DNA of 64,000 bases from positions 1 through 64,000 of the forward strand of contig NZ_QZMN01000006.1 of the NCBI RefSeq assembly GCF_003702705.1, given 5' to 3'. The stretch comes from Ornithinimicrobium cerasi. GTDB taxonomy: Bacteria > Actinomycetota > Actinomycetes > Actinomycetales > Dermatophilaceae. A model generated the notes under the pieces. That model made no database searches. It was given only the letters and a program-made list of their open reading frames with translations, and was not told the origin of the DNA. Made by a program: the position numbers and the translations under genes. This document shows, one piece after another, positions 1,207 to 64,000 of the stretch (its first letter is position 1; each line of letters begins with the position of its first letter).

Positions 1207-2229
1207 ATGCGTGTCCTCGTCACCGGCGGCGCCGGCTACATCGGTTCCCACACGGTCCTGCAGCTGCTGTCTGCCGGCCACGACGTGATCGTCGTCGACG
1301 ACTTCAGCAACGCCCGCCCGGCGGTGGTCGACCGGCTCGAGGAGCTGGCCGGTCGGCCCGTGCCGGTGCACGCGTTCGACGTCGCCGACGGCGGGCGCCT
1401 CGACGCGCTGCTGGGCGACCCTGCCGCGCCGGTCGACGCCGTCGTCCACTTCGCCGCCTTCAAGGCCGTCGGGGAGTCCGTGGCCCGCCCGGTGGACTAC
1501 TACCGCAACAACGTCTTCTCCACCCTGCAGGTGGTCGACGCGATGCTGCGCCACGGCATACCGCACCTCGTCTTCTCCTCCTCGGCCACCGTGTATGGCG
1601 CGCACGCGCCGGTCCCGATGACCGAGGACCTGCCGACCTCCGCGACGAACCCCTACGGGTGGAGCAAGGTGATGAGCGAGCAGATCCTGCGCGACGTCGT
1701 CGCGGCCAACCCCCAGCTGCGGGTCGCTCTGCTGCGCTACTTCAACCCGGTCGGCGCGCACCCCAGCGGCCGGATCGGGGAGGATCCCTCGGACGTCCCG
1801 AACAACCTGATGCCCTACATCGCGCAGGTCGCCGTGGGGCGCCGGGAGCGGCTGGCGGTCTTCGGCGACGACTACGACACCCCGGACGGCACCGGGGTGC
1901 GCGACTACATCCACGTCGAGGACCTCGCCGCCGGTCACGTCGCGGCCCTGGAGTGGATCGGCTCGCACGACCGGCCGCTGTCGGTGTGGAACCTGGGGTC
2001 GGGCGAGGGGACGTCGGTGCTGGAGCTGGTGCGGGCCTTCGAGCGGGCCAGCGGGCGCGCCATACCCTTCGAGGTGGTGGCGCGGCGGCCCGGTGACGTG
2101 GCGGTCTCCTACGCCGACCCCACGCTCGCGGAGCAGGAGCTGGGATGGGGCACGACGCGCACCGTGGACGACATGTGCGCCGACACGTGGCGGTGGCAGC
2201 AGGCGAACCCCGACGGCTACCCGGCCTGA
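1207..2229 (+). CDS. galE: UDP-glucose 4-epimerase
   Basis: A 340-residue short-chain dehydrogenase that interconverts UDP-glucose and UDP-galactose with bound NAD, supplying galactose for cell-surface glycans. The N terminus carries the NAD-binding motif GGAGYIGSH; the catalytic pair is visible as SSSATVYG followed by YGWSK (YxxxK). GTGVRDYIHVEDLA and the C-terminal GSGEGTSVLEL are characteristic of GalE. Length is typical. TAGGCT at 1195-1200 ends six bases before ATG 1207, so the transcript is probably leaderless. It stands alone, not in a gal operon. Confidence 0.95.
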   Translation: MRVLVTGGAGYIGSHTVLQLLSAGHDVIVVDDFSNARPAVVDRLEELAGRPVPVHAFDVADGGRLDALLGDPAAPVDAVVHFAAFKAVGESVARPVDYYRNNVFSTLQVVDAMLRHGIPHLVFSSSATVYGAHAPVPMTEDLPTSATNPYGWSKVMSEQILRDVVAANPQLRVALLRYFNPVGAHPSGRIGEDPSDVPNNLMPYIAQVAVGRRERLAVFGDDYDTPDGTGVRDYIHVEDLAAGHVAALEWIGSHDRPLSVWNLGSGEGTSVLELVRAFERASGRAIPFEVVARRPGDVAVSYADPTLAEQELGWGTTRTVDDMCADTWRWQQANPDGYPA

Positions 2230-2270
2230 GCGAGGAGGGACCGGTCCACCAATCCCGTCAACTCGTCAAC

Positions 2271-2287
2271 TACGACACAGGGGCGTA
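2271..2287. promoter_or_regulatory. putative BlaI-type operator upstream of the repressor gene
   Basis: TACGACA and GGGCGTA flank a 3-bp centre in a 17-bp imperfect dyad that overlaps the presumed -10 hexamer TAGACT (2286-2291) of the repressor gene. It shares TACGAC and the terminal GTA, and the same 17-bp length, with the dyad before cydA. Autoregulation is an inference. Confidence 0.4.
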
Positions 2288-2299
2288 GACTCATTCGTT

Positions 2300-2686: not shown

Positions 2687-2692
2687 CCCGGC

Positions 2693-3568
2693 GTGGCCGG
2701 GGCCCTGGTCACCGCGGCGCTGATCGTCGGGGCGCTGCTGCTCACTCTCGTCGCCCCGCACGCCCTCGCCCGGTGGGAGCGGCTGCGGACCGTGCCCGCC
2801 CAGGGGCTGTTCCTGTGGCAGTCCGTCAGCCTGGCCGGCGTCGCCTTCGCCCTGTCCGCCGCCCCCGTCGCGGCGGCCACCCTCGGCACCGACTACCCCC
2901 GCCTCCTGCTCGCGGCCCTCATCCTGTCGGGCCTCATGCTGGCCAGGCTGCTCTGGTCCGGTCACACGGTGGGCACCGAGCTGCGCCGGATGCGTGCCGA
3001 GCACCGCGCCCTCGTCGACCTGGTCGGCGAGCGCCTGCCCCTCGCCGAGGACGGTGACGCGCCCTCCCCGGCACCCGCGGCCCGGCACGGCAAGGTGAGC
3101 GTCCTCCCCCAGGCCGACCCCACGGCATACTGCCTCCCCGGACGCCGGGACCGGATCGTGCTGAGCCGGGCCGCGCTGGACCGGCTGGGCGACGAGGAGC
3201 TCGGGGCCGTGCTCGCGCACGAGCACGCCCACCTGCGGCAGCGTCACGACCTGGTCCTGGAGCTCTTCCAGGTGCTGCACGAGGCGGTGCCCGAGCCCGT
3301 CCGGGCCGGCTCGGCCCTGGCGGAGGTGCGTCTGCTGGGGGAGCTGCTCGCCGACCGCGGGGCGGCCCGTCGGGTCGGTGCCGCGACCGTCGGCCGGGCG
3401 CTGGTCGCGCTCGTCACACCGGGGAGCGCGCGCCAGGTGCGTCGCCGTCTGGCTGCCCTCGCCGCCGATCCCGCGCCGGCCTGGTTGCGCCACGGGCTCC
3501 CCGTCCTCAGCTCGGCCGTGCTCGCCCTGCCCGTGGTGCTGCTCGCCCTGGCTCTGTGGGGTTCCTGA
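2693..3568 (+). CDS. M56-family membrane metallopeptidase
   Basis: A 291-residue integral membrane zinc protease. Hydrophobic segments occur near residues 3-22, 42-65 and 69-85 and at the C terminus. The zinc site HEHAH (HExxH) begins near residue 176, and ELLADRGA downstream supplies the third ligand Glu. It lacks the extracellular penicillin-binding sensor domain of BlaR1, so the signal it senses is unknown. GTG start at 2693, six bases after the repressor stop, indicates co-transcription and probably a signalling partnership. Presumed role: inactivating the BlaI-type repressor. Confidence 0.85.
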   Translation: MAGALVTAALIVGALLLTLVAPHALARWERLRTVPAQGLFLWQSVSLAGVAFALSAAPVAAATLGTDYPRLLLAALILSGLMLARLLWSGHTVGTELRRMRAEHRALVDLVGERLPLAEDGDAPSPAPAARHGKVSVLPQADPTAYCLPGRRDRIVLSRAALDRLGDEELGAVLAHEHAHLRQRHDLVLELFQVLHEAVPEPVRAGSALAEVRLLGELLADRGAARRVGAATVGRALVALVTPGSARQVRRRLAALAADPAPAWLRHGLPVLSSAVLALPVVLLALALWGS

Positions 3569-3639
3569 CCCCGCCCGGTGTCGGGTCGGTCACACCACCG
3601 TCCCCGGCCTGGGGTTTTAGAGGAATCTCCCGCTATCGT

Positions 3640-3656: not shown

Positions 3657-3689
3657 CGCACCATCCCGTCGTCATTGGGGGAGGACCCG

Positions 3690-5156
3690 TTGGACGCCCT
3701 GGACCTGGCACGCTGGCAGTTCGGCATCACGACCGTCTACCACTTCTTCTTCGTCCCGATCACGATCGGCCTGAGCCTCCTCGTCGCGGTGATGCAGACG
3801 CGGTGGATGCGGACGCGCGACCCGCAGTGGCTGCGGCTGACCAAGTTCTTCGGCAAGCTCTTCATGATCAACTTCGCGCTCGGCCTGGTGACCGGCATCG
3901 TGCAGGAGTTCCAGTTCGGGATGAACTGGTCGGACTACTCCCGCTTCGTCGGTGACATCTTCGGCGCGCCCCTGGCCATCGAGGCTCTCCTGGCGTTCTT
4001 CCTCGAGTCCACCTTCCTCGGCCTGTGGCTCTTCGGCTGGGGACGCATCCCCGAGAAGCTTCACCTGTCCTTCATCTGGCTCGTGCACGTCGGCACGGTC
4101 CTGTCGGCGTACTTCATCCTGGCCGCGAACTCCTTCATGCAGAACCCCGTCGGCTACACGATCAACGAGACCAACGGCCGTGCGGAGCTGACCGACTTCC
4201 TCGCCGTCCTCACCAACCCCGTGCAGCTGGTCACGTTCCCGCACGTCGTCGCGGCGGCATACATGACGGGCGGTGCGTTCGTCCTCGCCTTCGCCATCTG
4301 GCACCTGTGGCGCACCGGGACCCCGGCGGTCGACAAGCCGATGTACCGCAAGGCCGCCAAGCTCGGCGCCTGGACCGTGCTCGTCGCCTCCCTGGTCGTC
4401 ATCGGCTCCGGCGACGTCCAGGGCAAGGTGATGACCGAGGTGCAGCCGATGAAGATGGCCGCCGCCGAGGGCCTCTACGAGGACGTGCCCGAGGGCGTCG
4501 GCGCGCCGTTCTCGATCATCACCGTCGGGACCCTGGACGGGCGCGAGGAGGTCTGGGCGCTGACGGTGCCCAAGCTGCTCTCCTACCTGGCCACCGGTTC
4601 GCTCGAGGGTGCGGTCGAGGGGATCGACCACGTCCAGGAGCGGTACGAGCTCACCTACGCCGGGTCCGAGCTCACCGCGGCGGAGGACTACCGGCCGGTC
4701 GTCCCGGTCACCTACTGGAGCTTCCGCCTCATGATGGGGCTGGGTTTCGCGGGGATGGCGATCGCCGCGGCCGTGCTCTGGGCCCTGCGGGGCACGGGGT
4801 CGAGGACCGGGGAGAGCCGCCTCGAGGGCCACCGGATGTGGGCCTGGGCCGGGGCGCTGGTCCTGTTCATGCCGCTGCTGGCCAACAGCTTCGGCTGGAT
4901 CTTCACCGAGATGGGTCGCCAGCCGTGGCTCGTCATGGGCCTCATGACGACCCAGACCGGCGTCTCCCCCGGCACGACGACCGGGGAGGTCCTCACCTCG
5001 ATGGTCGTCTTCACCCTGCTCTACGGCGCGCTCGCCGTCGTCGAGGTCGGGCTGACGCTGCGCTACGGCCGCGCGGGTGCGGAGCAGGTGCCGGAGGACC
5101 CCTCCTTCGACCCCGCGCACCGCTCCGACGACGACGCGTTCCTCTTCACCTACTGA
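3690..5156 (+). CDS. cydA: cytochrome bd ubiquinol/menaquinol oxidase subunit I
   Basis: The quinol-oxidising, haem-carrying subunit of cytochrome bd, a terminal oxidase with high oxygen affinity in the cytoplasmic membrane. The N-terminal LARWQFGITTVYHFFF contains the haem b595 ligand His (H18 here). EFQFGMNWSDYSRFVGDIFG and the later GRQPWLV near residue 415 are diagnostic. About nine membrane helices; 488 residues, as expected. TTG 3690 is chosen because GGGGGAGG (3676-3683) is well placed; an in-frame TTG at 3675 has no such site. First gene of cydA-cydB-cydDC. Confidence 0.96.
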   Translation: MDALDLARWQFGITTVYHFFFVPITIGLSLLVAVMQTRWMRTRDPQWLRLTKFFGKLFMINFALGLVTGIVQEFQFGMNWSDYSRFVGDIFGAPLAIEALLAFFLESTFLGLWLFGWGRIPEKLHLSFIWLVHVGTVLSAYFILAANSFMQNPVGYTINETNGRAELTDFLAVLTNPVQLVTFPHVVAAAYMTGGAFVLAFAIWHLWRTGTPAVDKPMYRKAAKLGAWTVLVASLVVIGSGDVQGKVMTEVQPMKMAAAEGLYEDVPEGVGAPFSIITVGTLDGREEVWALTVPKLLSYLATGSLEGAVEGIDHVQERYELTYAGSELTAAEDYRPVVPVTYWSFRLMMGLGFAGMAIAAAVLWALRGTGSRTGESRLEGHRMWAWAGALVLFMPLLANSFGWIFTEMGRQPWLVMGLMTTQTGVSPGTTTGEVLTSMVVFTLLYGALAVVEVGLTLRYGRAGAEQVPEDPSFDPAHRSDDDAFLFTY

Positions 5157-6275: not shown

Positions 6276-6290
6276 GCCACGGCATACCCG

Positions 6291-9200
6291 ATGAGACCGT
6301 TCGACCCCGCCCTCCTGCGCGCACTCCCGCAGACGCGGCTCCCGGTGGCGCTGCTGTCCGGCGTCGGCGTGCTCTCCGGCGTCGCCGCCATCGGCCAGGC
6401 GGTCGCGCTGGCGGTGGTGGTCGCCCGGGTGGTGTCCGGCGCCCCGCTCGCGCCGGCCCTGGTCTGGCTGGTCGGGCTGCTCGCCCTCCGCGGGGTGCTC
6501 GCGGCGCTGTCGGAGTATGCCGCGCGCCGGGCCGGTCTGCGCGTGGCCGCCGTCGTCCGGCTGGCGGTGCTGCGGCGGTGGCTCGGCCGTCCCGTCGAGG
6601 ACCGGCCGCCGGAGGAGGTGGCCGTCACCCGGGCCGGTGAGGGCGTGTCGGCGGTCGAGCCGTACGTCGCCCGCTACCTGCCGGCGCTCGTCACCGCCGC
6701 CGTCGTGCCGGCACTGGCGGTGCTGGCGCTGGTCGTGGTGGACCCGTGGAGCGCCCTCGTCGTCGTGCTCACCCTGCCGCTCCTGCCGGTCTTCGCGGCG
6801 CTCATCGGGCTGCACACCCAGGAGCAGACGGACCGCCGGTGGGGCGCGATGGCGCTGCTGTCCGGGCACTTCCTCGACGTGGTGCGCGGCCTCCCGACGC
6901 TGGTGGCCTACGGGCGGGCGCGGGCCCAGGTGCAGGTCGTGCGCGAGGTCGGCGAACGGCACCGGGAGGCGACGGTGCGCACCCTGCGGACGGCCTTCCT
7001 GTCGACCGCCGCCCTCGAGCTGCTCGCCACGATCTCGGTGGCGATGGTCGCGGTGGCGGTCGGCCTGCGGCTCGCCTACGGCGCGATGGACCTCACCGTC
7101 GCGCTGACCGCGATCCTGCTGGCGCCGGAGGCCTACTGGCCGGTGCGTCGGGTCGGGGCGGAGTTCCACAACGCGGCCGACGGGGCGGCGGTGCTGGAGG
7201 CGCTCGCCGCCGACGGCACCCTCCCGACCGACGGGTCGGCGCGGACGGACCGGGGGGTCCGCACGGACGCACCGACGGGCCCGGACGGACACCCCGGGCC
7301 GGTGGGCCTGCACGCGGTCGGCTACGCGCACCCCGGTCGCGAGCGCACGGTGGTCGACGTCAGCCTCAGCACCCCTGGCGGTCCCGGCCTCACCGTGCTC
7401 ACCGGCCCCTCGGGAGCGGGCAAGACGACGGTCCTGGAGCTGCTCGCCGGGCTGCGCCGGCCGACGACGGGGACGGTGACGGCACCTCCCGCCCACCTCG
7501 CCGCCCAGCGCCCCGTGCTGCTCCCCGGGACCGTCCGCGACAACCTCGCTCTCGTCGACGGCGGTGCCGACGACGCAGCGATGACGCGGGCGCTGGAGCG
7601 GGTAGGGCTCCGGGACGCGCTCGCCGCCCGCGAGGGCCCGGACACCCTCCTCGGCGACGACGGCTTCGGCCTCTCGGCGGGCCAGCGGGCGCGGCTGGCC
7701 CTCGCCCGTGCGACCCTGTCGCGAACCCCGCTGGTTCTCCTCGACGAGCCCACCGCCAACGTGGCGGCCGGTGCGGTCCCCGCCCTGCACGAGGTGATCC
7801 TCGAGCTCGCCCGCACGCGCCGCGTGGTCGTCGTCACCCACGACCCGGTGCTCGCGGCCCACGGCGACGACCGCTGGCAGCTCGAGCCCGCGCCCCTCCC
7901 TGCCGCTCCGGCCGCCGCCACCGATGCCTGTGCGGCGCTGTCGTGTCACGACGAACGCCTAGACGACCACCGTGACACGACAGCCGGGCACAGGCATCAG
8001 GTCGACGCCCCTGCGCACCCCACCCCCGGGCAGCCCACCCCCGGTGTCGTGGAGCCGATCATCCTCCCGGGCGGCCGGCGCGGCCTGGTCCTCGCGTGCC
8101 TCCTCGGCGGCGGCTCCGTCTCCTGCGGTGTCGCGCTCACGGCCACCTCGGGCTGGCTCATCGTCGAGGCCTCCACGATGCCGGTCGTCCTGATGCTCAT
8201 GGTCGCGATCGTCGGAGTGCGCGCCTTCGGCATCTTCCGTCCCGTCCTGCGCTACGCCGAGCGCGTCATCTCCCACGACGTCGCGCTGGAGGACCTCGCC
8301 ACCCGCCGCGCCGACGTCTTCGCCCGGCTCGTCCCGCTCACCCCGGCCCGCCTCGGCCGCCGCAGCCGCGGGGACGTGCTCACCGCGGTCGTCCGCGACC
8401 TCGACGACGTGGTCGACGCGCAGGTGCGGGTCACGGTCCCCGCCTGGTCCGCCCTGCTCGCCACCGCGGTGGGCGCCGCGCTCGCGGCCTGGCACCTCCC
8501 GGCGGCCGGTCTCGTCATCACGGTCGGCGCCCTCACCACCGCGCTCCTCGCCCTCACCGGGTATGCCGTGGAGCGCACCTCCCAGCGCGCCGCCGTCCTG
8601 GCCCGCAGCGAGGTGCAGCAGCGCACCACCGCGCTGACCGGCCGGTTGCTGGCCGTCCAGGCGGTGACCGGCACCACCGCCGACCCGGACGCCGTGCTGG
8701 CCGGCATCGACCGCGCCGAGCAGCGGCACCAGCGGGCCGAGGCCGGTCTGATCCGCGCGAGGGCGCTGGTCATCGCCGCGCTGTGGGCCGTCGTCGCCGG
8801 CACGGCGGCCGCGGTCGCCGTCCTCGCCTGGCAGGCCCGGTCCGCCGGCGAGCTGACCGGGCCGTACGCCGCCCTCGTCGCCCTCGTCCCGATGGCGCTG
8901 GCCGACACCTGGGTCGGCACGGCGGACATCGCCGGGGCCGCGGCCCGGGCCCGGGCGTCGGCCGACCGGCTCGCGGCGGTGCTCGGCCGCTCCCCCGCCG
9001 TGCACGGTCGCGGGACGGGCTCGCCGGCCGGGACGGCCGTGCCCCGGCTCGTGCTCGACGCGGTGGGCGCGGCGTGGGGCGAGGAGAGCCGGGCGGCACG
9101 GCATACCCTCGACCTCGCCCCGCTCGACCTGACGCTGCAACCGGGGTGCCGCCTGGCGCTCACCGGCCCCAACGGGGTCGGCAAGTCCACCGCGCTGGCC

Positions 9201-9746
9201 GTCCTCGCGCGACACCTCGACCCGCTGTGCGGCCGGTATGCCGTCGACGGTCAGGACGCCGTCGACCTCGACCTGGAGGCCACGCGGTCACGCATCGCCG
9301 TGGTGGACGACGAGCCGCACGCCTTCGCCGGGTCGGTGCGCGCCAACCTGCTCCTCGCGCGCCCCGACGCGGACGACGAGGACCTGCTCGCCGCGCTGCT
9401 GGCCGTGGACCTCGGGCACTGGCTCGCGACGTTGCCGGCCGGCCTCGGCACGACCCTCACCGGGTTGTCGGGCGGCGAGCGCGCCCGGTTGTCGATGGCC
9501 AGGGCCGTGCTCTCCGGTCGACCGGTCGTGCTCCTGGACGAGCCCGCCGCGCACCTGGACGACGCGACAGCCGGACGCGCCCTGGGCGGGCTCCTCGCCG
9601 CGGGCGCGAGGAGGACGCACCTCATGGTGAGCCACCGGCCCGACGACCTCGCCGGGTGGGACCCCGTCGAGCTGCGACCGGTGCCGGTCACCTCAGCCGA
9701 CGCACCGGGCGTCCTTCCGGTGGAGCTGGCGACGGCCCGGGCCTAG
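6291..9746 (+). CDS. cydDC: fused CydDC heterodimeric thiol ABC exporter
   Basis: A 1151-residue fusion of CydD and CydC, the ABC exporter of cysteine/glutathione-type thiols needed for cytochrome bd assembly. The CydD half has a six-helix membrane domain, Walker A GPSGAGKTT near residue 372, signature LSAGQRARLALARA and LLDEPTANV. The CydC half begins around residue 580, with ALTATSGWLIVEAST, Walker A GPNGVGKST near 959, signature LSGGERARLSMARA and LLDEPAAHLDD. The joining linker is encoded by a 76-bp inverted repeat (7923-7998). Fused CydDC is known in actinobacteria. ATG 6291 directly follows the octamer GGCATACC with no ribosome site, so translation is probably coupled to cydB. Confidence 0.93.
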   Translation: MRPFDPALLRALPQTRLPVALLSGVGVLSGVAAIGQAVALAVVVARVVSGAPLAPALVWLVGLLALRGVLAALSEYAARRAGLRVAAVVRLAVLRRWLGRPVEDRPPEEVAVTRAGEGVSAVEPYVARYLPALVTAAVVPALAVLALVVVDPWSALVVVLTLPLLPVFAALIGLHTQEQTDRRWGAMALLSGHFLDVVRGLPTLVAYGRARAQVQVVREVGERHREATVRTLRTAFLSTAALELLATISVAMVAVAVGLRLAYGAMDLTVALTAILLAPEAYWPVRRVGAEFHNAADGAAVLEALAADGTLPTDGSARTDRGVRTDAPTGPDGHPGPVGLHAVGYAHPGRERTVVDVSLSTPGGPGLTVLTGPSGAGKTTVLELLAGLRRPTTGTVTAPPAHLAAQRPVLLPGTVRDNLALVDGGADDAAMTRALERVGLRDALAAREGPDTLLGDDGFGLSAGQRARLALARATLSRTPLVLLDEPTANVAAGAVPALHEVILELARTRRVVVVTHDPVLAAHGDDRWQLEPAPLPAAPAAATDACAALSCHDERLDDHRDTTAGHRHQVDAPAHPTPGQPTPGVVEPIILPGGRRGLVLACLLGGGSVSCGVALTATSGWLIVEASTMPVVLMLMVAIVGVRAFGIFRPVLRYAERVISHDVALEDLATRRADVFARLVPLTPARLGRRSRGDVLTAVVRDLDDVVDAQVRVTVPAWSALLATAVGAALAAWHLPAAGLVITVGALTTALLALTGYAVERTSQRAAVLARSEVQQRTTALTGRLLAVQAVTGTTADPDAVLAGIDRAEQRHQRAEAGLIRARALVIAALWAVVAGTAAAVAVLAWQARSAGELTGPYAALVALVPMALADTWVGTADIAGAAARARASADRLAAVLGRSPAVHGRGTGSPAGTAVPRLVLDAVGAAWGEESRAARHTLDLAPLDLTLQPGCRLALTGPNGVGKSTALAVLARHLDPLCGRYAVDGQDAVDLDLEATRSRIAVVDDEPHAFAGSVRANLLLARPDADDEDLLAALLAVDLGHWLATLPAGLGTTLTGLSGGERARLSMARAVLSGRPVVLLDEPAAHLDDATAGRALGGLLAAGARRTHLMVSHRPDDLAGWDPVELRPVPVTSADAPGVLPVELATARA
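7923..7998. repeat. 76-bp long inverted repeat inside cydDC
   Basis: Left arm 7923-7950 consists of GATGCCTGTGC, a 4-base interruption, then CTGTCGTGTCACG. Right arm 7971-7998 is CGTGACACGACAG, 4 bases, then GCACAGGCATC. Both arm segments are perfectly complementary, around a 20-base loop. A related palindrome stands between genes at 53833-53886; both share the 17 bases GGCGCTGTCGTGTCACG. Here it is translated in frame and encodes the CydD-CydC linker. Confidence 0.85.
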
Positions 9747-10120: not shown

Positions 10121-10149
10121 CCCCGCCCGCGCCTGAGACAATGGCGCAC

Positions 10150-11583
10150 ATGCCGCTGCCCGCCGCCCGCACACCCCTCGCCGAGCTGACGCCGCCGATC
10201 GCCCTCGGCGCGCTCGACGGTCGCTACCGGGGGGCGGTGGCGCCGCTCGTCGACCACCTCTCCGAGGCCGCCCTCAACCGGGCCCGCCTGCACGTCGAGG
10301 TGGAGTGGCTGATCCACCTCACCACGACCGAGGTCGTCCCCGGCGCCGACCATCTCTCCGCCGACGAGCAGGCCGCGCTGCGGGCGCTCGTCCCCGACTT
10401 CGACGCCGCGGCGATCACCGAGCTGCGCGAGATCGAGGCCGAGACGGTGCACGACGTCAAGGCCGTCGAGTACTACCTGCGCCGCCGCCTCGCCGAGATC
10501 CTCGACGGCGAGAGCGACCGCACGGAGCGCCTCGCCGAGCTCGTCCACTTCGCCTGCACGAGCGAGGACGTCAACAACACCTCCTACGCGCTCATGGTCC
10601 AGGGGGCGGTCACCGAGGTCTGGCTGCCGCGGGCCCGCGCCCTCGTCGACCAGCTCTCGGGTATGGCGCGCGAGCTCGCCGAGGTGCCGCTGCTCGCCCA
10701 CACCCACGGCCAGCCCGCGACCCCCACGACGATGGGCAAGGAGCTGGCGGTCCTGGCCTGGCGGCTGACCCGGCAGCTCGACCGGGTGGGCGGCGCGGCA
10801 TACCTGGGCAAGCTCAACGGGGCGACCGGCACGTACGGCGCGCACGTCGTGGCGGTCCCGGAGGCCGACTGGCAGGAGGTCAGCCGCACCTTCGTCGAGC
10901 GCCTCGGGCTCACCTGGAACCCGCTCACCACCCAGATCGAGAGCCACGACTGGCAGGCCGAGCTCTACGCCGACGTCGCGAGGTTCAACCGGGTGCTGCA
11001 CAACCTCGCGACCGACGTCTGGACCTACATCTCGATGGGCTACTTCGCCCAGGTCCGCGGTCAGGGCACCGTCGGCTCCAGCACGATGCCGCACAAGGTC
11101 AACCCGATCCGGTTCGAGAACGCCGAGGCCAACCTCGAGGTCAGCAACGCCCTCCTCGACGTGCTTGCCTCGACCCTGGTGACGAGCCGGCTGCAGCGCG
11201 ACCTCACCGACTCCTCGATGCAGCGCAACATCGGCACCGCCCTGGGGCACAGCCTGCTGGCGCTCGACAACGTCTCACGCGGGCTCGCCGGTCTCGACGC
11301 CGTGCCGGAGGCCATGGCGCGCGACCTCGACGCCAACTGGGAGGTCCTGGCCGAGCCGGTGCAGTCGGTGATGCGGGCGCTCGCGGCGCGCGGTGTCCCG
11401 GGCATGACCAACCCCTACGAACGGCTCAAGGAGCTGACCCGCGGCCGCCGGATCGGGCAGGCGGAGCTGGTCGACTTCGTGCGCGGGCTCGGGCTGCCCG
11501 CCGAGGAGGAGGCGCGGCTCGTGGCCCTGACCCCGGCCTCCTACACCGGTCTGGCCGCCCGCCTCGTGGACCACGTGGGCTGA
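10150..11583 (+). CDS. purB: adenylosuccinate lyase
   Basis: Catalyses two steps of purine synthesis: cleavage of SAICAR to AICAR and of adenylosuccinate to AMP, releasing fumarate. The superfamily signature SSTMPHKVNPIRFENAEAN is present near residue 300, ACTSEDVNNTSYALM near 140 and AHTHGQPATPTTMGKE near 180. LSPLDGRY-like IALGALDGRY marks the N terminus of the longer proteobacterial/actinobacterial form. ATG 10150 follows GACAAT by seven bases; ATG 10141 is an in-frame alternative. The stop overlaps the next gene's ATG. Confidence 0.95.
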   Translation: MPLPAARTPLAELTPPIALGALDGRYRGAVAPLVDHLSEAALNRARLHVEVEWLIHLTTTEVVPGADHLSADEQAALRALVPDFDAAAITELREIEAETVHDVKAVEYYLRRRLAEILDGESDRTERLAELVHFACTSEDVNNTSYALMVQGAVTEVWLPRARALVDQLSGMARELAEVPLLAHTHGQPATPTTMGKELAVLAWRLTRQLDRVGGAAYLGKLNGATGTYGAHVVAVPEADWQEVSRTFVERLGLTWNPLTTQIESHDWQAELYADVARFNRVLHNLATDVWTYISMGYFAQVRGQGTVGSSTMPHKVNPIRFENAEANLEVSNALLDVLASTLVTSRLQRDLTDSSMQRNIGTALGHSLLALDNVSRGLAGLDAVPEAMARDLDANWEVLAEPVQSVMRALAARGVPGMTNPYERLKELTRGRRIGQAELVDFVRGLGLPAEEEARLVALTPASYTGLAARLVDHVG

Positions 11584-11975: not shown

Positions 11976-12343
11976 TCCTCGTCCCCGCGGACCGGCTCGA
12001 CGCCGTCCGCACGCACCTCCAGGACGCAGGGTATGCCGTCGCGTCAGCGGTCACGCCCGCTGCGGCGGACCTGCGGCAGACCCAGGCGGAGCTCGCCCGG
12101 GCGCTCCGGCTCCCCGGCGTCGCCGGGTCCAACCTCGACGCGATGGCCGACACCCTGCGCGACCTGCCGCAGATCTGGGGCTCGGACCGGGTCGCCCTGC
12201 TGTGGGAGGACGCCGACCGCCTCGCGGCCCACGACGGCCGTGCCTGGTGGATCCTCGGCGAGATCCTGGACGACGCCGACGACCTCACGGTCGTGGCGCT
12301 GGGCGAGGCCCGCCTGGGGCGGCCGACGGAGGAGGACCGATGA
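11972..12343 (+). CDS. barstar-family ribonuclease inhibitor
   Basis: A 123-residue homologue of barstar, the intracellular inhibitor that plugs the active site of barnase-type ribonucleases. The key inhibitory helix is preserved: SNLDAMADTLRDL gives D56 and D60, matching D35 and D39 of barstar in its ENLDALWDCL segment. The N-terminal extension relative to barstar is modest. GTG 11972 overlaps the upstream stop; the stop in turn overlaps the ATG of an RNase Sa-type gene (ATGA). The order inhibitor first, nuclease second suits protection of the producing cell. Confidence 0.85.
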   Translation: MILVPADRLDAVRTHLQDAGYAVASAVTPAAADLRQTQAELARALRLPGVAGSNLDAMADTLRDLPQIWGSDRVALLWEDADRLAAHDGRAWWILGEILDDADDLTVVALGEARLGRPTEEDR

Positions 12344-12885
12344 GGGTGAGCCGGCCGGTGGCGATCGGGCTGATGGTGGTGTGCGTGCTGGTGGTGCTGT
12401 GGCTCGCCGCCTCGAACCTCGGCCTGCAGGACGGCACGACCGGTCCCGGGGCGGAGCCGACGACCGCTCCGACGTCGGCCACGCCGACGGCGTCGGACAC
12501 CGGGACGACCCCCGCGGAGCCGGGCCGCACGGCATACCCCGCGGACGAGGGCGACGGCGGACCGGCCGGCACGGACACCCGCGACTGGGACGACGTCGAC
12601 GCCTGCCGCGACGACGTGCTGCCCCCCGAGCTGGAGGAGGTCGCCGACGACGTGGAGGCGGGCGGCCCGTTCGAGTTCCCGGGAAAGGACGGGTCGACGT
12701 TCGGCAACTACGAGGGCTACCTGCCGGGCGAGTCGCGCGGCTACTACCGGGAGTTCACCGTGGAGACGCCGGGCCTGGACCACCGCGGGGCGCGCCGGAT
12801 CGTCACCGGCGGCGGGGCGGACGACCCCGAGGTCTGGTACTACACCGACGACCACTACGAGAGCTTCTGCGAGTTTGTCCCGTGA
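12340..12885 (+). CDS. membrane-anchored or secreted RNase Sa/barnase-type ribonuclease
   Basis: A 181-residue protein with a signal or anchor helix (residues 7-25), a Thr/Pro/Ala-rich linker (33-85) and a C-terminal domain (about 88-181) that aligns by eye with Streptomyces guanyl-specific RNase Sa. Catalytic residues are all there: E138 (YYREFTV), R149 and R153 (HRGARR) and H172 (DDHYESF). The E-R-R spacing of 11 and 4 equals that of RNase Sa (E54, R65, R69, H85). C89 and C177 correspond to its disulfide. The cognate barstar-like inhibitor is encoded immediately upstream with a 4-base overlap. Whether it is released or remains anchored is not resolved. Confidence 0.88.
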   Translation: MRVSRPVAIGLMVVCVLVVLWLAASNLGLQDGTTGPGAEPTTAPTSATPTASDTGTTPAEPGRTAYPADEGDGGPAGTDTRDWDDVDACRDDVLPPELEEVADDVEAGGPFEFPGKDGSTFGNYEGYLPGESRGYYREFTVETPGLDHRGARRIVTGGGADDPEVWYYTDDHYESFCEFVP

Positions 12886-34056: not shown

Positions 34057-34155
34057 ACCCGTGTCCTCTTCCGTCGGCCCTTGGCTGGTCGTCCCCGGCA
34101 TCGTGCCACGGCGCGGTGGGCGCGGGCTGGACGCGGCACGGCATACCCTCGCCTC

Positions 34156-35499: not shown

Positions 35500-35515
35500 G
35501 GCATACCTCGTCGGG

Positions 35516-51379: not shown

Positions 51380-51413
51380 GCGCCCCCCCGGACCGGGACA
51401 CGCGGCATACCCG

Positions 51414-53165
51414 ATGGTCAACCTCCTCCAGCTGCTGCACAAGGGCAGGCCCGCCCTGGCCAGGCCCGACAGCCTGCGACGGGTCCGGGTGGACGTTCCC
51501 GACGAGCCCATGACGACGGACGCGGTCTTCCTCGTCCTGCGGCGCATCCGGACCCCGCTGGTCGTCCTGGTCGGGACGTTCGCGCTGATGACCTTCGGGC
51601 TCTCGGTCATGCCCGGCACCGTGGAGAACCCGGAGCCGCTCGGCGTCTTCGACGCCTTCTACGTCATCAGCTACACCGGGCTGACGATCGGCTACGGCGA
51701 GGTCCCGCACCCCTACTCCTACGCCCAGCGGATGTGGGTCACCCTGACGATCTACGTCAGCGTGCTGGCCTGGAGCTACTCCCTCGCCGTCCTCCTCGCG
51801 ATCGCCCAGGAGCGCACCTTCCGCGACTCGATCGCGCTGCAGCGGTTCAGCCGGCGGGTCCGGCGCCTGCAGTCCCCGTTCGTGCTCGTCGTCGGCTACG
51901 GCCAGGCCGGAGAGGCCGTCTGCCGGGCGCTGGAGGACCAGGGCAGGGAGTTCGTCGTCCTCGACAGCGACGCGGGGCGCGTGGAGCAGCTGGCCCTCGA
52001 CGGCTACACCAGTGACGTGCCGGCGTTCGCGGCCAGCGGCCGCGACCCCCGGATGCTGGGGATGGCCGGGCTCGGGCACGACCAGTGCGAGGCGGTCCTG
52101 GCGCTGACCGACAGCGACGAGACCAACCTCTCGATCGTCATGTCGGTCAACCTGCTGCGGCCAGAGCTCATGGTCATCGCGCGGTCCAGCGACCGGGAGC
52201 ACGCGCAGCAGATGCACGACTTCGCGGCGGACGTCATCATCAACCCGTTCGACCGCTACGGGGCCTACCTCGTCATGGCGCTGCGGCGGCCCGCCGGCTT
52301 CCGGCTCGCGTCGTGGCTGATGAGCCCGCGCGGGACCGGGCTCCCGCACAAGCTCGAGCACCTCACCGACGGGCACTGGGTGGTGTGCGCCGACGGCGAC
52401 TTCGGGGTGGAGGTGACGCGCGACCTGGAGAGCGCCGGCCTCGACGTGGTCCTCGTCGACCCGGTGGACGGGCGCCCCGACGTGACCGACGCCGTCGGCT
52501 TCATCGCGGGGGCCGAGTCGGACATCGTCAACATGGCGATGGCTGCGCACGCGCGCATCGAGAACGACCAGCTCTTCATCGCGGTGCGGCAGAACTCCTC
52601 GATCAACCAGGCGCCGCTGCGGGCCTTCGACGCCGACTCCGTCTTCGTGCCGACCGAGCTGCTCGCCCGTGAGGCGGTGGCCCGGATCACCTCGCCGAAC
52701 TACTGGTCCTTCATCGACCACGTGCTCCACGAGGACGACGACTGGGACGAGCGGATCATGGACGAGATCGTGGAGGTGGTCGGCCACGAGACGCCGGCCA
52801 GCAGCCGGGTCGACATGGAGTTCCACTCGGCGCCGGCTGCTGTGCGCTGGATGCGCAGCCGCGAGCTGACGGTCGGCGACATCCTGCGCGACCCGGACGA
52901 CCGGGGGACGCGGCTCGCGGCATACCCGGCGGTGCTGGTGCGCGACGGCCGCCGCATCTTCACCCCCGCGCTCGACCTGCCGCTGCGGGAGGGCGACGGG
53001 CTGCTCCTGCTCGGGCGCGAGGCCGACCTGCTCGTCGTGCGGTCGACGTTGTTCCACGACTCGGCGGTGGAGTACGTCGCCACCGGGCGCGAGGTCGCGA
53101 CGGCGTGGATCTTCCGGCAGGTGCAGCGGTGGCGGTGGGCGGCGCAGGAGCGCCGGGGCGCCTAG
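51414..53165 (+). CDS. potassium channel with RCK (TrkA-N/TrkA-C) domains
   Basis: A 583-residue K+ channel. Two helices flank the pore; the selectivity filter reads TIGYGEV (91-97), with Ile and Glu where TVGYGD is usual. The cytoplasmic part has a first TrkA-N Rossmann domain (VVGYGQAGEAV near 160), a second nucleotide-binding-like domain (WVVCADGDFGVEVTRDL near 320) and a C-terminal TrkA-C-like region. ATG 51414 follows directly after a GGCATACC octamer (51404-51411) with no ribosome site; coupling to the upstream gene is likely. Confidence 0.9.
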   Translation: MVNLLQLLHKGRPALARPDSLRRVRVDVPDEPMTTDAVFLVLRRIRTPLVVLVGTFALMTFGLSVMPGTVENPEPLGVFDAFYVISYTGLTIGYGEVPHPYSYAQRMWVTLTIYVSVLAWSYSLAVLLAIAQERTFRDSIALQRFSRRVRRLQSPFVLVVGYGQAGEAVCRALEDQGREFVVLDSDAGRVEQLALDGYTSDVPAFAASGRDPRMLGMAGLGHDQCEAVLALTDSDETNLSIVMSVNLLRPELMVIARSSDREHAQQMHDFAADVIINPFDRYGAYLVMALRRPAGFRLASWLMSPRGTGLPHKLEHLTDGHWVVCADGDFGVEVTRDLESAGLDVVLVDPVDGRPDVTDAVGFIAGAESDIVNMAMAAHARIENDQLFIAVRQNSSINQAPLRAFDADSVFVPTELLAREAVARITSPNYWSFIDHVLHEDDDWDERIMDEIVEVVGHETPASSRVDMEFHSAPAAVRWMRSRELTVGDILRDPDDRGTRLAAYPAVLVRDGRRIFTPALDLPLREGDGLLLLGREADLLVVRSTLFHDSAVEYVATGREVATAWIFRQVQRWRWAAQERRGA

Positions 53166-53237
53166 GCCCACCGGGTATGCCGTGGGCGATCAGTCCCGCC
53201 GGTGCTCGGGTGCCTCGCGGCCGGCGTGGGCCTCGGG

Positions 53238-56961: not shown

Positions 56962-57438
56962 GTGGACGACTTCCCCCAGCTCGCGCTCGACCAGCAGATC
57001 TGCCTGCCGCTGTATGCCGCGTCCCGCGCGGTGACCCGTCGCTACGCCCAGCTGCTGGACGAGGTCGGCCTGACCTATCCCCAGTACCTCTCGCTGCTGG
57101 CGCTGTGGGAGGCCGACGGCCCGCTGAGCGTCGGCGACCTGGGGGTGCGGCTGCACCTCGACTCCGGCACGCTGACGCCCCTGCTCAAGCGGATGGAGGC
57201 GGCGGGCCTGGTCACCCGGGCCCGGGACCGCCTCGACGAGCGTCGCGTCCTCGTGTCGGTGACCGACCAGGGCAAGGACCTGCGCGCCCGGGTGGCCGAC
57301 GTCCCGGCCCGGCTCGTCCAGGGCATGGGGATGACGGAGGCGGACGGCCGCGCCCTCCGCAGTCTTCTTCAGCGGCTCCTCACCCAGCTGGAGCCGGACC
57401 GGTCCGCCGGGCCACCACCAGGTAGCGCTCGTCCGTGA
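56962..57438 (+). CDS. ohrR: MarR-family peroxide sensor OhrR
   Basis: A 158-residue winged-helix repressor. The reactive Cys is C14 in QQICLPLYAASRA, matching the OhrR sensor Cys; LTYPQYLSLLALWE and HLDSGTLTPLLKRMEAAGLV are the family DNA-binding segments. GTG 56962 is six bases after TATTCT (leaderless); an in-frame ATG at 56932 would lie inside the operator. Oxidation of C14 is expected to release repression of ohr. The 3' end overlaps the convergent methyltransferase gene by 59 bases. Confidence 0.92.
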   Translation: MDDFPQLALDQQICLPLYAASRAVTRRYAQLLDEVGLTYPQYLSLLALWEADGPLSVGDLGVRLHLDSGTLTPLLKRMEAAGLVTRARDRLDERRVLVSVTDQGKDLRARVADVPARLVQGMGMTEADGRALRSLLQRLLTQLEPDRSAGPPPGSARP

Positions 57439-57973: not shown

Positions 57974-58024
57974 GGGGCCAGGGTATGCCGCAGTCAGGGA
58001 CTCCGGTCCAGGCCCGCAAGGTTG

Positions 58025-59349: not shown

Positions 59350-60558
59350 TCAGGACTGGGAGAGCAGGTACCTGCCGAAGTGCGGCACCGTGAACGCGAT
59401 CCGGCCACGTTCGCCGGAGTAGATGAGGCCCTTCTTCAGCAGGGCGTCGCGCGCCGGGGAGAGGGACTGCGGCTTCCGGCCCAGGTGCGCGGCCAGGTCC
59501 GCCGTGGCGACCGACCCGACCTCGTCGACGTCCTCACCCTCGGCCAGTCGCTCGGCCGCCACCTCGGCCATGGCCCGGAGGTACTCCCGCTCCCCCGGCG
59601 TCGCGCGCTCGTAGCGGGACCCGAAGAAGCCGACCGCCAGCTCGGCCTCCGCCTCGGGCGAGCCGACGCGCACGTCCTCGGCGGTGATCGGTGACGCCGG
59701 GGCGAGGTCCCAGACCTCCTTGCCGTAGGCCTGGATGAAGTAGGGGTAGCCGCCGGTCGCGGCATACATCTCCCCCAGAGCGTCCGTGGACCAGGTGGCG
59801 CCCTCGTCCTCGGCGGGGGACTGGAGCGCGCGGGCCGCTGCCTCGCGCGAGAGCCGGTCGATGCGGTTGTAGCGGAAGAGCCGCTCGGAGTAGGACTTCG
59901 ACGCCGAGAGCACCGCGGGGAGGTGCGGCAGCCCGGCGCCCACGACGATGACCGGGAGCGCGTTCTGCGACAGCTCGTGGCACGCCGCGCAGAGCGCGGA
60001 GACGTCGTCCGACGCCAGGTCCTGCATCTCGTCGATGAAGATCGCCACCCCCTTGCCGACGTCCGCGGCGAGCCCGCCCACGTCGGTGAAGAGCTCGACG
60101 AGGTCGATCTCGATGTCGCCCGAGTCAGCGCGGCCGGTGACCGCCGGGACGTCGATGCCGGGGTTCCACCGCTCGCGCAGCTTGGCCCCCGGCTGGTCCT
60201 TCTGCGCGAACGCCTTGATGACCCCGAGGACGTGGTCCACCTCCTCGCCGCGCGGGTGTCCGAGCTCGCGCACGGCGACGTGCAGCGCCGCGGCCATCGG
60301 GCGGCGCATCCCCTGCTCCGGCCGTGCCTCGTACTTCCCGGTCCCCCACCGGGCACGGACCGCTGCGGACCGCAGGGCGTTGAGCAGGACGGTCTTGCCG
60401 ACCCCGCGCAGCCCGGTGAGGATCATCGAGCGCTCCGGCCGCCCGCGTCGGATGCGCTCCAGGACGACGGTGAACCGGTCGAGCTGCTCGTCCCGGCCGG
60501 CGAGCTCGGGCGGACGCTGCCCGGCACCGGGGGCGTAGGGGTTTCGGATGGGATCCAC
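59350..60558 (-). CDS. AAA-family ATPase with C-terminal winged helix
   Basis: A 402-residue ATPase. Walker A is LTGLRGVGKTVLL near residue 50 and Walker B VAIFIDEMQDLA near 175; a C-terminal winged helix covers about 330-395 (GRKPQSLSPARDALLKKGLI). The layout resembles Orc1/Cdc6-like or STAND-related ATPases that recur across actinobacterial genomes without known role. TACAGT ends six bases before GTG 60558. It lies next to type VII secretion genes, but a functional link is unproven. Confidence 0.82.
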   Translation of the reverse strand: MDPIRNPYAPGAGQRPPELAGRDEQLDRFTVVLERIRRGRPERSMILTGLRGVGKTVLLNALRSAAVRARWGTGKYEARPEQGMRRPMAAALHVAVRELGHPRGEEVDHVLGVIKAFAQKDQPGAKLRERWNPGIDVPAVTGRADSGDIEIDLVELFTDVGGLAADVGKGVAIFIDEMQDLASDDVSALCAACHELSQNALPVIVVGAGLPHLPAVLSASKSYSERLFRYNRIDRLSREAAARALQSPAEDEGATWSTDALGEMYAATGGYPYFIQAYGKEVWDLAPASPITAEDVRVGSPEAEAELAVGFFGSRYERATPGEREYLRAMAEVAAERLAEGEDVDEVGSVATADLAAHLGRKPQSLSPARDALLKKGLIYSGERGRIAFTVPHFGRYLLSQS

Positions 60559-60986: not shown

Positions 60987-61166
60987 GATGATGTCCTTTC
61001 CGAGGGTGTTTCAGGTCAGGACCGCACCCCCCACAGTTACCCTCGGCGGTGCGATCGGTCCTCACCATAGGCAGACCTGTCGGACCCTGTCCACCGCGTC
61101 CCTGGCCGATGTCTGCCACGACCCACGAGTGGCAGGGAACTGCCACGGGCGGCTGGGCGCCGTCGG

Positions 61167-64000
61167 TCAGCCCGGCCAGATCACCTGCACCCGGGCCGCC
61201 TGCCCGGACAGCACCAGGTAGCCACCGCCGGGGGCCATCGGCTGACCGTAGGCCGACCGGTTCAGACGTGCACCGAACAGGTCCGCGTCAGCGCTCGACT
61301 GGGGCGCCAGCATGACCCCGCTGCCCGACTTCTTCAGCACGGCTGCGGGGCCCCGGTAGTGCGCCTGCAGGTCGGCGGGGTTGCCGGCCCCGACGAGGAG
61401 GTTGTCGGTGTCCCGCATCGACTCCAGGGTGCGCACCAGGGCGTCCGCGAGCCAGCCGTCCGCCCCGACCAGCTCCGCGTCGTCGACGACCACGAGGAGC
61501 GGCGTCGGGTCGGCCACGAGCCGCGCGAGCTCGGCGGGCACCTGCGTCTGGTCGCTGGACAGGTCCCACGGCCCCCACACCCCCGGCCCCGTCAGCTCGC
61601 GCAACGGGCTGGCGCGCGGGGTGACGACCGCGACGTGCCAGCCACGACCCAGGGCCGCCGTCGCCAGCTGCCGCAGGACGGTGGACCTCCCGGTGCGTCT
61701 CGCGCCGGTGACGAGGAGGCCCGGCCCGTGGTCGACGGCGTCGAGGTGGCGCAGCCCCAGCGTGTCTCCCCCGACCGCGACGGGAAGGGAGGTGGCGGCG
61801 ACCACGAGCCCCTCCGCCGCCTCCTGGGCCGCGAGCCGGTCCGCCTCGGCCGCGTCGACCCGCACCGGCAGCACGTCGACGTGGAAGGGCCGGCGGGAGC
61901 GCGGCAGGTCGGCATACCGTGCGGTGCTGGCGCGGGCGAGGGACTGCAGCGCCCGGACCTGGGCGGTGCCGGAGGGGTCGACGTCCAGGAGGGCCACCTG
62001 CGTCTCGCGCAGCCCGTCGGCCCGGAAGCCCCGCCCCTCCACCATGCTGTCCGGCACCTTCTTGGTCGGCATGCCGATCGTGCTGAAGTCGCCGGGGTCG
62101 GTCATCCGCAGCATGAGCTTGTCGTCGAGCAGGGTCGCCATCCGGCCCAGGCTCAGCGACCGGTCCCCCGTCATCACCACCCGCACACCCACCGCGGCAC
62201 CCTCCTGGAGGATCTGCTGGAAGGCCACCACGAGCCGGCCACCGTCGAGCCCGTCGTAGGCCTGGAAGAACCCCTCCCACCGGTCGAAGAGGATGAGCAC
62301 GTAGGGCAGGCGCTCCTCCTCGGGGACGGCGGCCCGCTGCTCGGTCACGTCGGCGAAGCCGGCCTCGGCGAGCTGCTGCTGACGGGCGCTGATCAGGTCC
62401 CTCAGGCGGCCGATCAGACGCTCCATCCGGTCGGTCTGGTCCCGTGCGACGACCGCGCCCACGTGCGGCATCGCCTGCAGGGGCAGCAGCGCGTTGTTGC
62501 CGTTGTCGATGCCGTAGACGTGCACGTCGGCCGGGGACAGATCGCGCGCGACGGCGCCGACGAGGGCCCGCAGTGCGGTCGAGCGCCCGCTGCGCGACGC
62601 CCCGACGATCGCCAGGTGGGCCCCGCGCTCGAGGTCGTAGGTCGCCACGTCACGACGCTGCTCGGCGGGCAGGTCCACCACCCCCAGCGGGAGCACGAGG
62701 CGCTCCGCGGAGGGTATGCCGTGCGGGTGCGCCGCGAGCACGTCCGCCATGGTCACCCCGTCCTCGAGGGCCGGCAGCCAGGGGCTCGGCGGGGCCTGCA
62801 CCCCCGAGCTCTCGCTGGCCTCCTGGCAGGCGAGCACGAGGGCGGCGAGGTCGGTCGGCACGCTCGCGTCCTCCTCGGCGACGGCCGCGGCGGGCGGTGC
62901 CACGCCCAGCTCGCGGAACGGCATACCCCTCAAGCGCACCTGCGCGGTGCGGCCCCGGCCCCGCGCCCGACCGCCGACCCGGGACGACTGGAAGGGGATG
63001 AGGCTGGAGTGGCCGAGGCGGGCGTAGGCGCGGCCCGGGGTCGCCTTGGAGATCTCGGCGGCGTCGCGGGACTCGATGACGTCCTGCGAGTCGTTCGCGT
63101 CGGTGACGCGCAGCGCGATCCGCAGGTTGGTGTTGGACTTGATCTCGGCGCTCACCACGCCGGCGGGGCGCTGCGTCGCCAGGATGAGGTGCACCCCCAG
63201 CGAGCGGCCCCTGCGGGCGATGTCGACGAGGCCGGTGACGAAGTCCGGCAGCTCGGCGACGAGCGCCGCGAACTCGTCGATGACGATGAGCAGGCGCGGC
63301 ATCGGGGCGTCGCCCGGTCCGCGCGCGGCGAGGTAGTCCTCGATGTCCTTGGCGTCGGCCGCGGCCAGCTGGTGCTCGCGCCGTCGCAGCTCGGCCCCGA
63401 GCGACTCCAGCGCGCGTCCGGTGAGGTGGCCGTCGAGGTCGGTCACCATGCCGACCGTGTGCGGCAGCCGGTTGCAGTCCTTGAAGGCCGCGCCACCCTT
63501 GTAGTCGATGAGCACGAACGTCATCTCGTCGGGGCGGTTGCGCACCGCGAGCGAGGCGATGACCGTCTGGAGGAGCTCGGACTTGCCGGACCCGGTGGTG
63601 CCGGCCACCAGGCCGTGCGGCCCGTCGCGGACCAGGTCGACGGCGAACGGCCCCTCGACCCCCTCGCCGATCACCGCCGTCGTGGTCCTCCCGACCTGGC
63701 GCCACAGGTCCTCGACCGCGGCACCGGTCGGCGGGTCGAGGCGCAGCACGTCGAGGAGGCGGCTCGCGGTCGGGATCGACGCGGCGGCGTCCTGCGCCGA
63801 GACGTCCCGGACCGGGGAGACCGCCCGGGCGACCCGCTCCGCCCACGCGGTGCTGACCAGGTCGGGACGCACCCCCTCGACCACCCAGCGCTCGGTGACC
63901 CGCACCGTCATGAGGGGCTCGTCCGCCTGGACCACCGCGGAGCACTCCTCCGGGAGGAGGCGCTCGTCCTCGTCGAGGCAGAGGAAGGTCATCTGCACGG
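61167..64000 (-). CDS. eccC: type VII secretion ATPase EccC (N terminus beyond window)
   Basis: The C-terminal 940 or so residues of an FtsK/SpoIIIE-type secretion ATPase. The first ATPase domain is intact: Walker A GTTGSGKSE, Walker B LLIVIDEFAAL. Domains two and three have Arg in place of the Walker Lys (GASRSGRST and GARRTGRST), as in EccC, where these sites are regulatory. AYDGLDGGRLV and LVVVDDAELV are their Walker B regions. The membrane helices and any FHA part lie past position 64000. The 180 bases to the WXG100 gene contain its ribosome site only. Confidence 0.93.
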   Translation of the reverse strand, partial: VQMTFLCLDEDERLLPEECSAVVQADEPLMTVRVTERWVVEGVRPDLVSTAWAERVARAVSPVRDVSAQDAAASIPTASRLLDVLRLDPPTGAAVEDLWRQVGRTTTAVIGEGVEGPFAVDLVRDGPHGLVAGTTGSGKSELLQTVIASLAVRNRPDEMTFVLIDYKGGAAFKDCNRLPHTVGMVTDLDGHLTGRALESLGAELRRREHQLAAADAKDIEDYLAARGPGDAPMPRLLIVIDEFAALVAELPDFVTGLVDIARRGRSLGVHLILATQRPAGVVSAEIKSNTNLRIALRVTDANDSQDVIESRDAAEISKATPGRAYARLGHSSLIPFQSSRVGGRARGRGRTAQVRLRGMPFRELGVAPPAAAVAEEDASVPTDLAALVLACQEASESSGVQAPPSPWLPALEDGVTMADVLAAHPHGIPSAERLVLPLGVVDLPAEQRRDVATYDLERGAHLAIVGASRSGRSTALRALVGAVARDLSPADVHVYGIDNGNNALLPLQAMPHVGAVVARDQTDRMERLIGRLRDLISARQQQLAEAGFADVTEQRAAVPEEERLPYVLILFDRWEGFFQAYDGLDGGRLVVAFQQILQEGAAVGVRVVMTGDRSLSLGRMATLLDDKLMLRMTDPGDFSTIGMPTKKVPDSMVEGRGFRADGLRETQVALLDVDPSGTAQVRALQSLARASTARYADLPRSRRPFHVDVLPVRVDAAEADRLAAQEAAEGLVVAATSLPVAVGGDTLGLRHLDAVDHGPGLLVTGARRTGRSTVLRQLATAALGRGWHVAVVTPRASPLRELTGPGVWGPWDLSSDQTQVPAELARLVADPTPLLVVVDDAELVGADGWLADALVRTLESMRDTDNLLVGAGNPADLQAHYRGPAAVLKKSGSGVMLAPQSSADADLFGARLNRSAYGQPMAPGGGYLVLSGQAARVQVIWPG

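Follow-up and report, generated by a model that had tools for sequence, protein, structure and literature searches.

Clade-wide recognition words in bacterial DNA are scarce, and the known ones have opened fields, Chi that of recombination and the DNA uptake sequence (DUS) that of bacterial sex. Known Chi words are enriched on the leading strand, the FtsK-orienting polar sequences (KOPS) of each replichore show strong polarity in the direction of the terminus, and some uptake words form terminator-like inverted pairs. Here, we describe a word, CGGCATAC, that is in excess in a 64,000-nucleotide stretch of actinobacterial DNA (NZ_QZMN01000006.1, positions 1 to 64,000; hereafter the window), contig 63 among the 87 in the assembly of the source genome (G000). 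Followed mostly by C or G, this core is over-represented in genomes of a single actinobacterial family, and in most samples its copies exclude each other within about 1 kb when they share an orientation, which is a new observation on the word. Like Chi, the family word is short, exact, and non-palindromic, numbers about 1000 copies, is rare in foreign DNA, and is apparently read in one direction; unlike Chi, it has no leading-strand bias, most word-rich genera lack RecC, and the candidate reader is AdnAB. It shares with the DUS and uptake signal sequences (USS) of Neisseriaceae and Pasteurellaceae a length of 8-10 bp, copy numbers in the hundreds to thousands, absence of polarity, the formation of dialects, and few inverted hairpin pairs, but its exclusion depends on orientation and its halo of mismatched forms is small. 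The highly iterated palindrome HIP1 of cyanobacteria is likewise a clade-wide over-represented octamer, found in genes and gaps and of unsettled function, yet it is a palindrome associated with orphan methyltransferases, whereas the family word is not palindromic. KOPS and architecture-imparting sequences are also short GC-rich words along the chromosome, but the polarity of KOPS is not shared by the family word. Because each of Chi, DUS, HIP1, and KOPS has at least one tested feature that is unmet here, we assign the word to none of them.

Besides the core, we counted the octamer GGCATACC, its reverse-strand form GGTATGCC, and the 9-base word CGGCATACC. Direct counting in the window gave 29 exact octamers, 18 GGCATACC (forward) and 11 GGTATGCC (reverse), with C directly before every copy (29/29), and thereby bore out the count and coordinates of a first-pass annotation of the stretch. 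Seven more copies, which that annotation had described as matching seven bases, indeed match only the first seven bases of the octamer and bring CGGCATAC to 36. Dinucleotide shuffles of the window (n = 100) contained a mean of 0.61 octamers and a maximum of 3, versus the 29 observed, and an order-3 Markov model of 84 kb of G000 (the window and a further 20-kb stretch) predicted 1.86 where 34 were observed; models of maximal order are uninformative, since the word itself makes its shorter subwords abundant. The excess is not restricted to the window: throughout the source genome (3.83 Mb), GGCATACC occurs 1127 times (549 and 578 by strand), versus 18 for the reversed control word. The earlier proposal of a genome-wide recognition word is therefore supported, and the word reaches far past the source genome into its family. 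A search of the open-access literature for the word strings returned only matches unrelated by title (polymerase crystallography and Ralstonia typing).

We sampled the family, presumably Dermatophilaceae as GTDB defines it, with 187 genomes from 53 genera, and called genomes rich when they held 322-4724 copies of CGGCATAC and no less than double the count of the reversed control word. By this measure, 111 genomes were rich, 62 poor (7-95 copies), and 14 intermediate, with 26 genera rich throughout and 16 poor throughout; strand totals summed over the rich genomes were 102,558 forward and 102,255 reverse. None of the 229 genomes sampled from other families of the same order exceeded 177 copies. 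Thus, the comparison with related genera that the first-pass annotation had called for shows an excess that is family-wide (111/187 rich) and absent from the other-family genomes sampled. Word-poor genomes also occur within otherwise rich genera (G023, 50 copies; G066, 37; G141, 19), and the genus mates of G141 carry 3681 and 1062; in 100 kb of G023, there was no comparably enriched substitute, the top 8-mers reaching 14 versus 1.7 and 32 versus 7.2 expected. The genus of the source genome, g1, is probably Ornithinimicrobium: its FtsK is nearest to three Ornithinimicrobium sequences (85-91% identity), with further matches in Knoellia, Phycicoccus, Pedococcus, and Metallococcus. Observed versus expected CGGCATAC counts at named loci of about 21 kb each were 13 versus 0.41 in O. 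tianjinense, 4 versus 0.2 in O. sp. CNJ-824, 5 versus 0.27 in O. cavernae, 18 versus 0.53 in Knoellia remsis, 24 versus 0.70 in Metallococcus carri, 6 versus 0.5 in a Phycicoccus metagenome-assembled genome (MAG), and 15 versus 0.7 in an Actinomycetales MAG (L174). A Microbacterium locus (L179) had 3 versus 0.54, a Pedococcus locus 1 versus 0.4, ten Arthrobacter-type loci 0-1 each, and the remaining loci fewer than 3.

How the copies are placed depends on their relative orientation. We compared pairs less than 1 kb apart, in the same or the opposite orientation, with expectation; the samples for this and for polarity were 21 stretches of G007 (284 words) and 21 of G134 (307 words). Same-orientation pairs numbered 45 in G134 and 57 in G007, and opposite pairs 126 and 128, where 113.5 and 98.5 of each kind were expected; in both genomes, 0/2000 orientation shuffles reached the observed deficit. 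The corresponding numbers of same-orientation and opposite pairs were 68 and 122 in eighteen stretches from other genera, of which three had no words (about 110 expected each), 6 and 15 in the source genome (about 11), 11 and 20 in five genus mates (about 19.5), and 5 and 8 in G028 (about 10), while the window itself holds 5 same-orientation and 11 inverted pairs. The deficit ends at 1-1.5 kb, with numbers then back to expectation. Pairs within one gene divided into 13 same versus 55 inverted in G134 and 17 versus 59 in G007, and pairs not sharing a gene into 32 versus 71 and 40 versus 69. Control 8-mers of similar frequency (13 and 49 words) showed no such deficit, with mean same/expected ratios of 1.14-1.28; in each control set, a single word is as low as the target or lower, and it is evidently the target, whose value is the set minimum. 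Likewise, the words with three A/T bases that reach the target deficit (3/67 and 4/71) are probably the target plus overlapping words. Because the exclusion is confined to copies sharing an orientation, this is probably a word read on a single strand, and we infer that its reader is a machine moving along the DNA. In the simplest view, the copies of each orientation make up a spaced lattice of their own, the word acting one way over about 1 kb. Among the functions that the first-pass annotation had offered, recombination still fits best, given the dependence of spacing on orientation, while segregation is contradicted by the lack of strand bias.

Specifically, no replication polarity or leading-strand bias was seen in the sampled stretches of G007 and G134, which divided into 146 forward and 138 reverse copies and into 150 and 157, respectively. 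The G-rich strand inferred from skew carried 142/284 copies in G007 and 149/307 in G134, where the skew split is poorly defined, and counts per 20-kb stretch ranged over 4-24 and 2-24. This contradicts a KOPS-like segregation role, as orientation along the chromosome is unbiased in both sampled genomes.

The word is also sharply defined. With the word masked in the Markov model, G134 has 307 exact copies versus 2.7 expected, and G007 has 284 of GGCATACC versus 5.0. One-mismatch forms were observed 259 times in G134 (199 by masked Markov, 396 by composition), 383 times in G007 for GGCATACC (157, or 2.4-fold, and 376), 229 times in a pool (156 and 262), and 87 times in G000 (53 and 110). Hence, the strong one-mismatch excess that is a feature of uptake words is absent in these samples, only G007 reaching 2.4-fold, and that over the Markov value. 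The one-mismatch counts tabulated in PMC1939737 exceed composition about 11-fold for both an uptake word and HIP1, and about 2.5-fold for Chi; the family word is sharper than these tabulated words. Within the rich genera sampled the core is constant and only the ninth base differs, being mainly C in G000, G106, and G177 and mainly G in G156, G102, and G130; in G035 and G088, position 3 is tolerant, and in G007, GGCATACC is preceded by C, G, or A. A candidate dialect of genus g2, CGGCATCC, was dropped, as 32/49 genic copies lie in one coding-strand frame and reflect codon use. In pairwise comparisons among four genus mates (about 75% identity), identical words stood in the aligned species at 9/23, 9/14, 3/9, 4/12, 3/4, and 4/7 sites, whereas control 8-mers were identical in 11-21% of cases; six more ordered comparisons yielded 0/2 in one case (62% identity), an alignment lacking any site in another, and no alignment in four. 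As these rates exceed those of the controls, words are retained beyond chance, yet are turning over.

Further evidence comes from foreign DNA. In three species (G000, G018, and G002), comEC is interrupted at about the same place by an insert of about 40 kb (Table 1). Together, these inserts hold 3 GGCATACC in 120.9 kb (and 5 CGGCATAC, 3 of them in G002), versus 20 GGCATACC in 59.1 kb of flanks at similar GC (binomial P 1.2e-7). Given this poverty at similar GC, the word marks resident DNA rather than base composition, and the background level in the inserts only indirectly suggests the phage-defense role raised earlier. By inspection, the open reading frames (ORFs) in the middle 20 kb of the G000 insert look like genes for terminase, portal, capsid, and tape measure, which suggests a prophage that may switch competence off; the Listeria comK prophage is a similar gene-splitting prophage. 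Two further comEC genes were matched in part: at G015 C1:1055794 (one contig), only the beginning of the profile is matched and the gene may be broken, and at G023 C11:7924, the match to the first part ends with the contig.

Relative to genes, mapped with a simple purpose-made gene caller, copies lie in every reading frame, on both strands, and inside and between genes, as the first-pass annotation had described. Its claim that the word forces rare codons also held for TAT: in 124 kb of G000 (43 copies), 14/38 TAT codons lie within the word, as do 88/392 in G134 and 77/238 in G007, and the fractions for ATA are 4/11, 26/38, and 36/56. Genes contain 228/307 copies in G134; the copies outside genes number 79/307 there (14.5% non-coding), 57/284 in G007 (11.3%), and 6/43 in G000 (14%, no excess). 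The two copies said to abut start codons do so, before an ABC-transporter (CydDC-like) ORF and a TrkA-N ORF whose ion-channel match is sub-threshold; where words hold the ATG of mechanical ORFs (12033 and 33639), the gene caller places both inside genes. With called start codons inside 11/284 words in G007 and 2/307 in G134, contact with start codons is not a general property of the word. A terminator or hairpin role was rejected, inverted neighbors within 60 bp being only 10 among 307 copies in G134. Four inverted word pairs of that genome do sit in long hairpins, possibly terminators (L248:8025, L248:12602, L248:15240, and L256:13106).

Tentatively, and at less than even confidence, we rank first a Chi-like role with AdnAB as its most likely reader. 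In this mechanism, a helicase-nuclease, most likely AdnAB, would resect a broken or incoming end until it meets a correctly oriented word, where it would switch from degrading to recombining, such that self DNA would be spared and repaired; a second word of the same orientation within about 1 kb would contribute little, and one of the opposite orientation would serve the other end of the break. The role is favored by the family-wide excess, the same-orientation exclusion, the word-poor comEC inserts, the presence of AdnA and AdnB orthologues in the source genome and of the PDDEXK_1 nuclease family in all 187 genomes, the scarcity of RecC in rich genera, and the retention of words between species. 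The source genome encodes AdnA and AdnB orthologues, their best matches being 7sjr chain A and 6ppu chain B, presumably AdnAB entries. PMC4824097 states that Chi regulation of AdnAB is unknown. More doubtful is the fuller claim that a helicase-nuclease of the AdnAB type has its first Chi in CGGCATAC, providing self/foreign discrimination family-wide through two independent strand-specific lattices. Several observations weigh against this account. The PDDEXK_1 nuclease family, to which AdnAB-type subunits belong, is present in 187/187 family genomes, and its matches, many in frames of AdnA or AdnB length, extend to word-poor genomes, so its presence alone cannot explain the distribution of the word. 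The leading-strand enrichment expected of Chi is not seen (142/284; 149/307), G035 (genus g5) shows no exclusion (23 same-orientation and 33 opposite pairs, 25.9 expected each), and G007 has a mild excess of opposite-orientation pairs (128 versus 98.5) that a one-strand lattice does not need.

The familiar version of this idea, an ordinary RecBCD-Chi or KOPS, is very improbable and contradicted at the family level. RecC is found in 31/32 genomes of the host genus, as it would predict, but in 0/9 of word-rich genus g55 and in 15/16 of word-poor genus g52, and strand bias is missing. By genus majority, RecC occurs in 5/30 rich, 10/18 poor, and 2/5 intermediate genera (rich versus poor, Fisher P 0.009, kinship uncorrected), and by genome in 49/111 rich and 36/62 poor (P 0.08); with 62/111 rich genomes lacking a RecC match and RecC in most of g52, we rejected RecBCD as the family-wide reader. 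Within genus g30, G066 is both the sole word-poor species and the sole one of five with RecC. Two recC matches fall in two pieces, that at G012 C1:3090579-3091492 in frames of unequal length, where the gene may be broken, and that at G124 C7:1056040-1057131 in 1236-aa frames for both (probably intact). A close second to the Chi-like role, though somewhat unlikely in its own right, is a DNA-uptake word of the DUS/USS type: competent cells would take up DNA that bears it in preference to other DNA, through Tad/ComEC-type machinery, and uptake-driven recombination would spread it within the family. Its size, density, and lack of chromosomal polarity resemble those of the Neisseriaceae and Pasteurellaceae words, and dialects inside one family (ninth base C/G; tolerant third base in G035 and G088), the background level in the comEC inserts, and a mild intergenic excess in G134 and G007, absent in G000, all accord with it. 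The machinery is there as well, with ComEC in 56/59 genomes and T2SSF genes, presumed largely Tad-type, in 184/187, but word-poor genomes carry both, such that ComEC does not match the word distribution and T2SSF does not discriminate, and in the host itself a prophage interrupts comEC. Type IV pili were rejected, PilM being found in 7/187 genomes (one strong) with a distribution that does not match; indeed, none of the genes profiled (RecC, PDDEXK_1, ComEC, T2SSF, and PilM) matches that of the word. Moreover, as described in PMC1939737, Haemophilus uptake is orientation-independent, whereas only same-orientation copies exclude each other here, and one-mismatch forms are barely in excess (G134, 259 versus 199/396) against the roughly 11-fold tabulated there. 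Our literature search found no report of competence in the host genus.

A site for a DNA-organizing or translocating protein that needs spaced, oriented copies would account for the orientation-specific spacing and for positions retained between species; it is nevertheless unlikely, as the word is no palindrome and lacks strand polarity on the two sampled chromosomes. Quite improbable is a methylation-linked word, as suspected for HIP1, kept abundant through marking or repair by an orphan methyltransferase: in its favor are an exact word in coding and non-coding DNA, its limitation to a clade, and its scarcity in single genomes of rich genera (G023, G066, and G141), yet the word is not palindromic, a methyl mark would not be expected to give orientation-specific exclusion, and the strong one-mismatch halo of HIP1 in the table of PMC1939737 has hardly any counterpart here. 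Were the word an active breakage or recombination site, direct repeats would delete and close same-orientation pairs would be lost, in keeping with a depletion that affects direct pairs only and is strongest within one gene (13 versus 55; 17 versus 59); since this leaves the abundance of the word unexplained, ordinary 8-bp direct repeats are undepleted, and the depletion stops at about 1 kb, we give it very little credence.

The copies of the word in the window and the comEC inserts are listed in Table 1. Separately, ACACACTGG occurs 9 times in 84 kb (window or stretch L048) versus 0.07 expected, possibly as a local repeat, and GTTTCTATTCGCCTT-like words occur 38-42 times in 400 kb of G028 samples (one or more of L047 and L070-L088), possibly as a clustered regularly interspaced short palindromic repeat (CRISPR) array.

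Table 1. Copies of the word in the window, and inserts in comEC of three genomes.
Feature	Position	Strand	Remark
CGGCATACC	1554..1562	+	exact word
CGGCATAC, ninth base T	3123..3130	+	core only
CGGCATAC, ninth base A	4255..4262	+	core only
CGGCATACC	6280..6288	+	adjoins ATG at 6291 of ABC-transporter (CydDC-like) ORF
CGGCATAC, ninth base T	6515..6522	-	core only
CGGCATACC	8560..8568	-	exact word
CGGCATACC	9099..9107	+	exact word
CGGCATACC	9235..9243	-	exact word
CGGCATACC	10796..10804	+	within adenylosuccinate lyase ORF 9808-11583
CGGCATACC	12030..12038	-	reverse strand has ATG (12033) of mechanical ORF with PNPOx match
CGGCATACC	12530..12538	+	exact word
CGGCATACC	17202..17210	-	exact word
CGGCATACC	17927..17935	-	exact word
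CGGCATACC	19006..19014	+	exact word
CGGCATACC	26359..26367	+	exact word
CGGCATACC	28113..28121	-	exact word
CGGCATACC	33636..33644	-	reverse strand has ATG (33639) of mechanical ORF without Pfam match
CGGCATACC	34051..34059	+	exact word
CGGCATACC	34139..34147	+	exact word
CGGCATACC	35499..35507	+	outside called genes
CGGCATAC, ninth base A	36515..36522	-	core only
CGGCATACC	38889..38897	+	exact word
CGGCATACC	41370..41378	+	exact word
CGGCATAC, ninth base A	45036..45043	+	core only
CGGCATACC	46425..46433	+	exact word
CGGCATACC	46515..46523	-	exact word
CGGCATACC	47180..47188	+	exact word
CGGCATACC	51403..51411	+	adjoins ATG at 51414 of TrkA-N ORF with weak ion-channel match
CGGCATACC	52918..52926	+	exact word
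CGGCATACC	53174..53182	-	outside called genes
CGGCATAC, ninth base A	57012..57019	-	core only
CGGCATACC	57982..57990	-	outside called genes
CGGCATAC, ninth base A	59760..59767	+	core only
CGGCATACC	61910..61918	+	exact word
CGGCATACC	62713..62721	-	exact word
CGGCATACC	62919..62927	+	exact word
comEC insert	G000 C66:47819-88165 (L111-L113)		phage-like ORFs by eye
comEC insert	G018 C46:68541-108976		same kind presumed from place and size
comEC insert	G002 C1:1161212-1201313		same kind presumed from place and size

The word described here belongs to actinobacteria, and its orientation-specific exclusion over a range of about 1 kb offers a form of distribution evidence that could help with other words whose function is unknown. 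For the family itself, the word tags native DNA, and a lack of it may flag recent imports.

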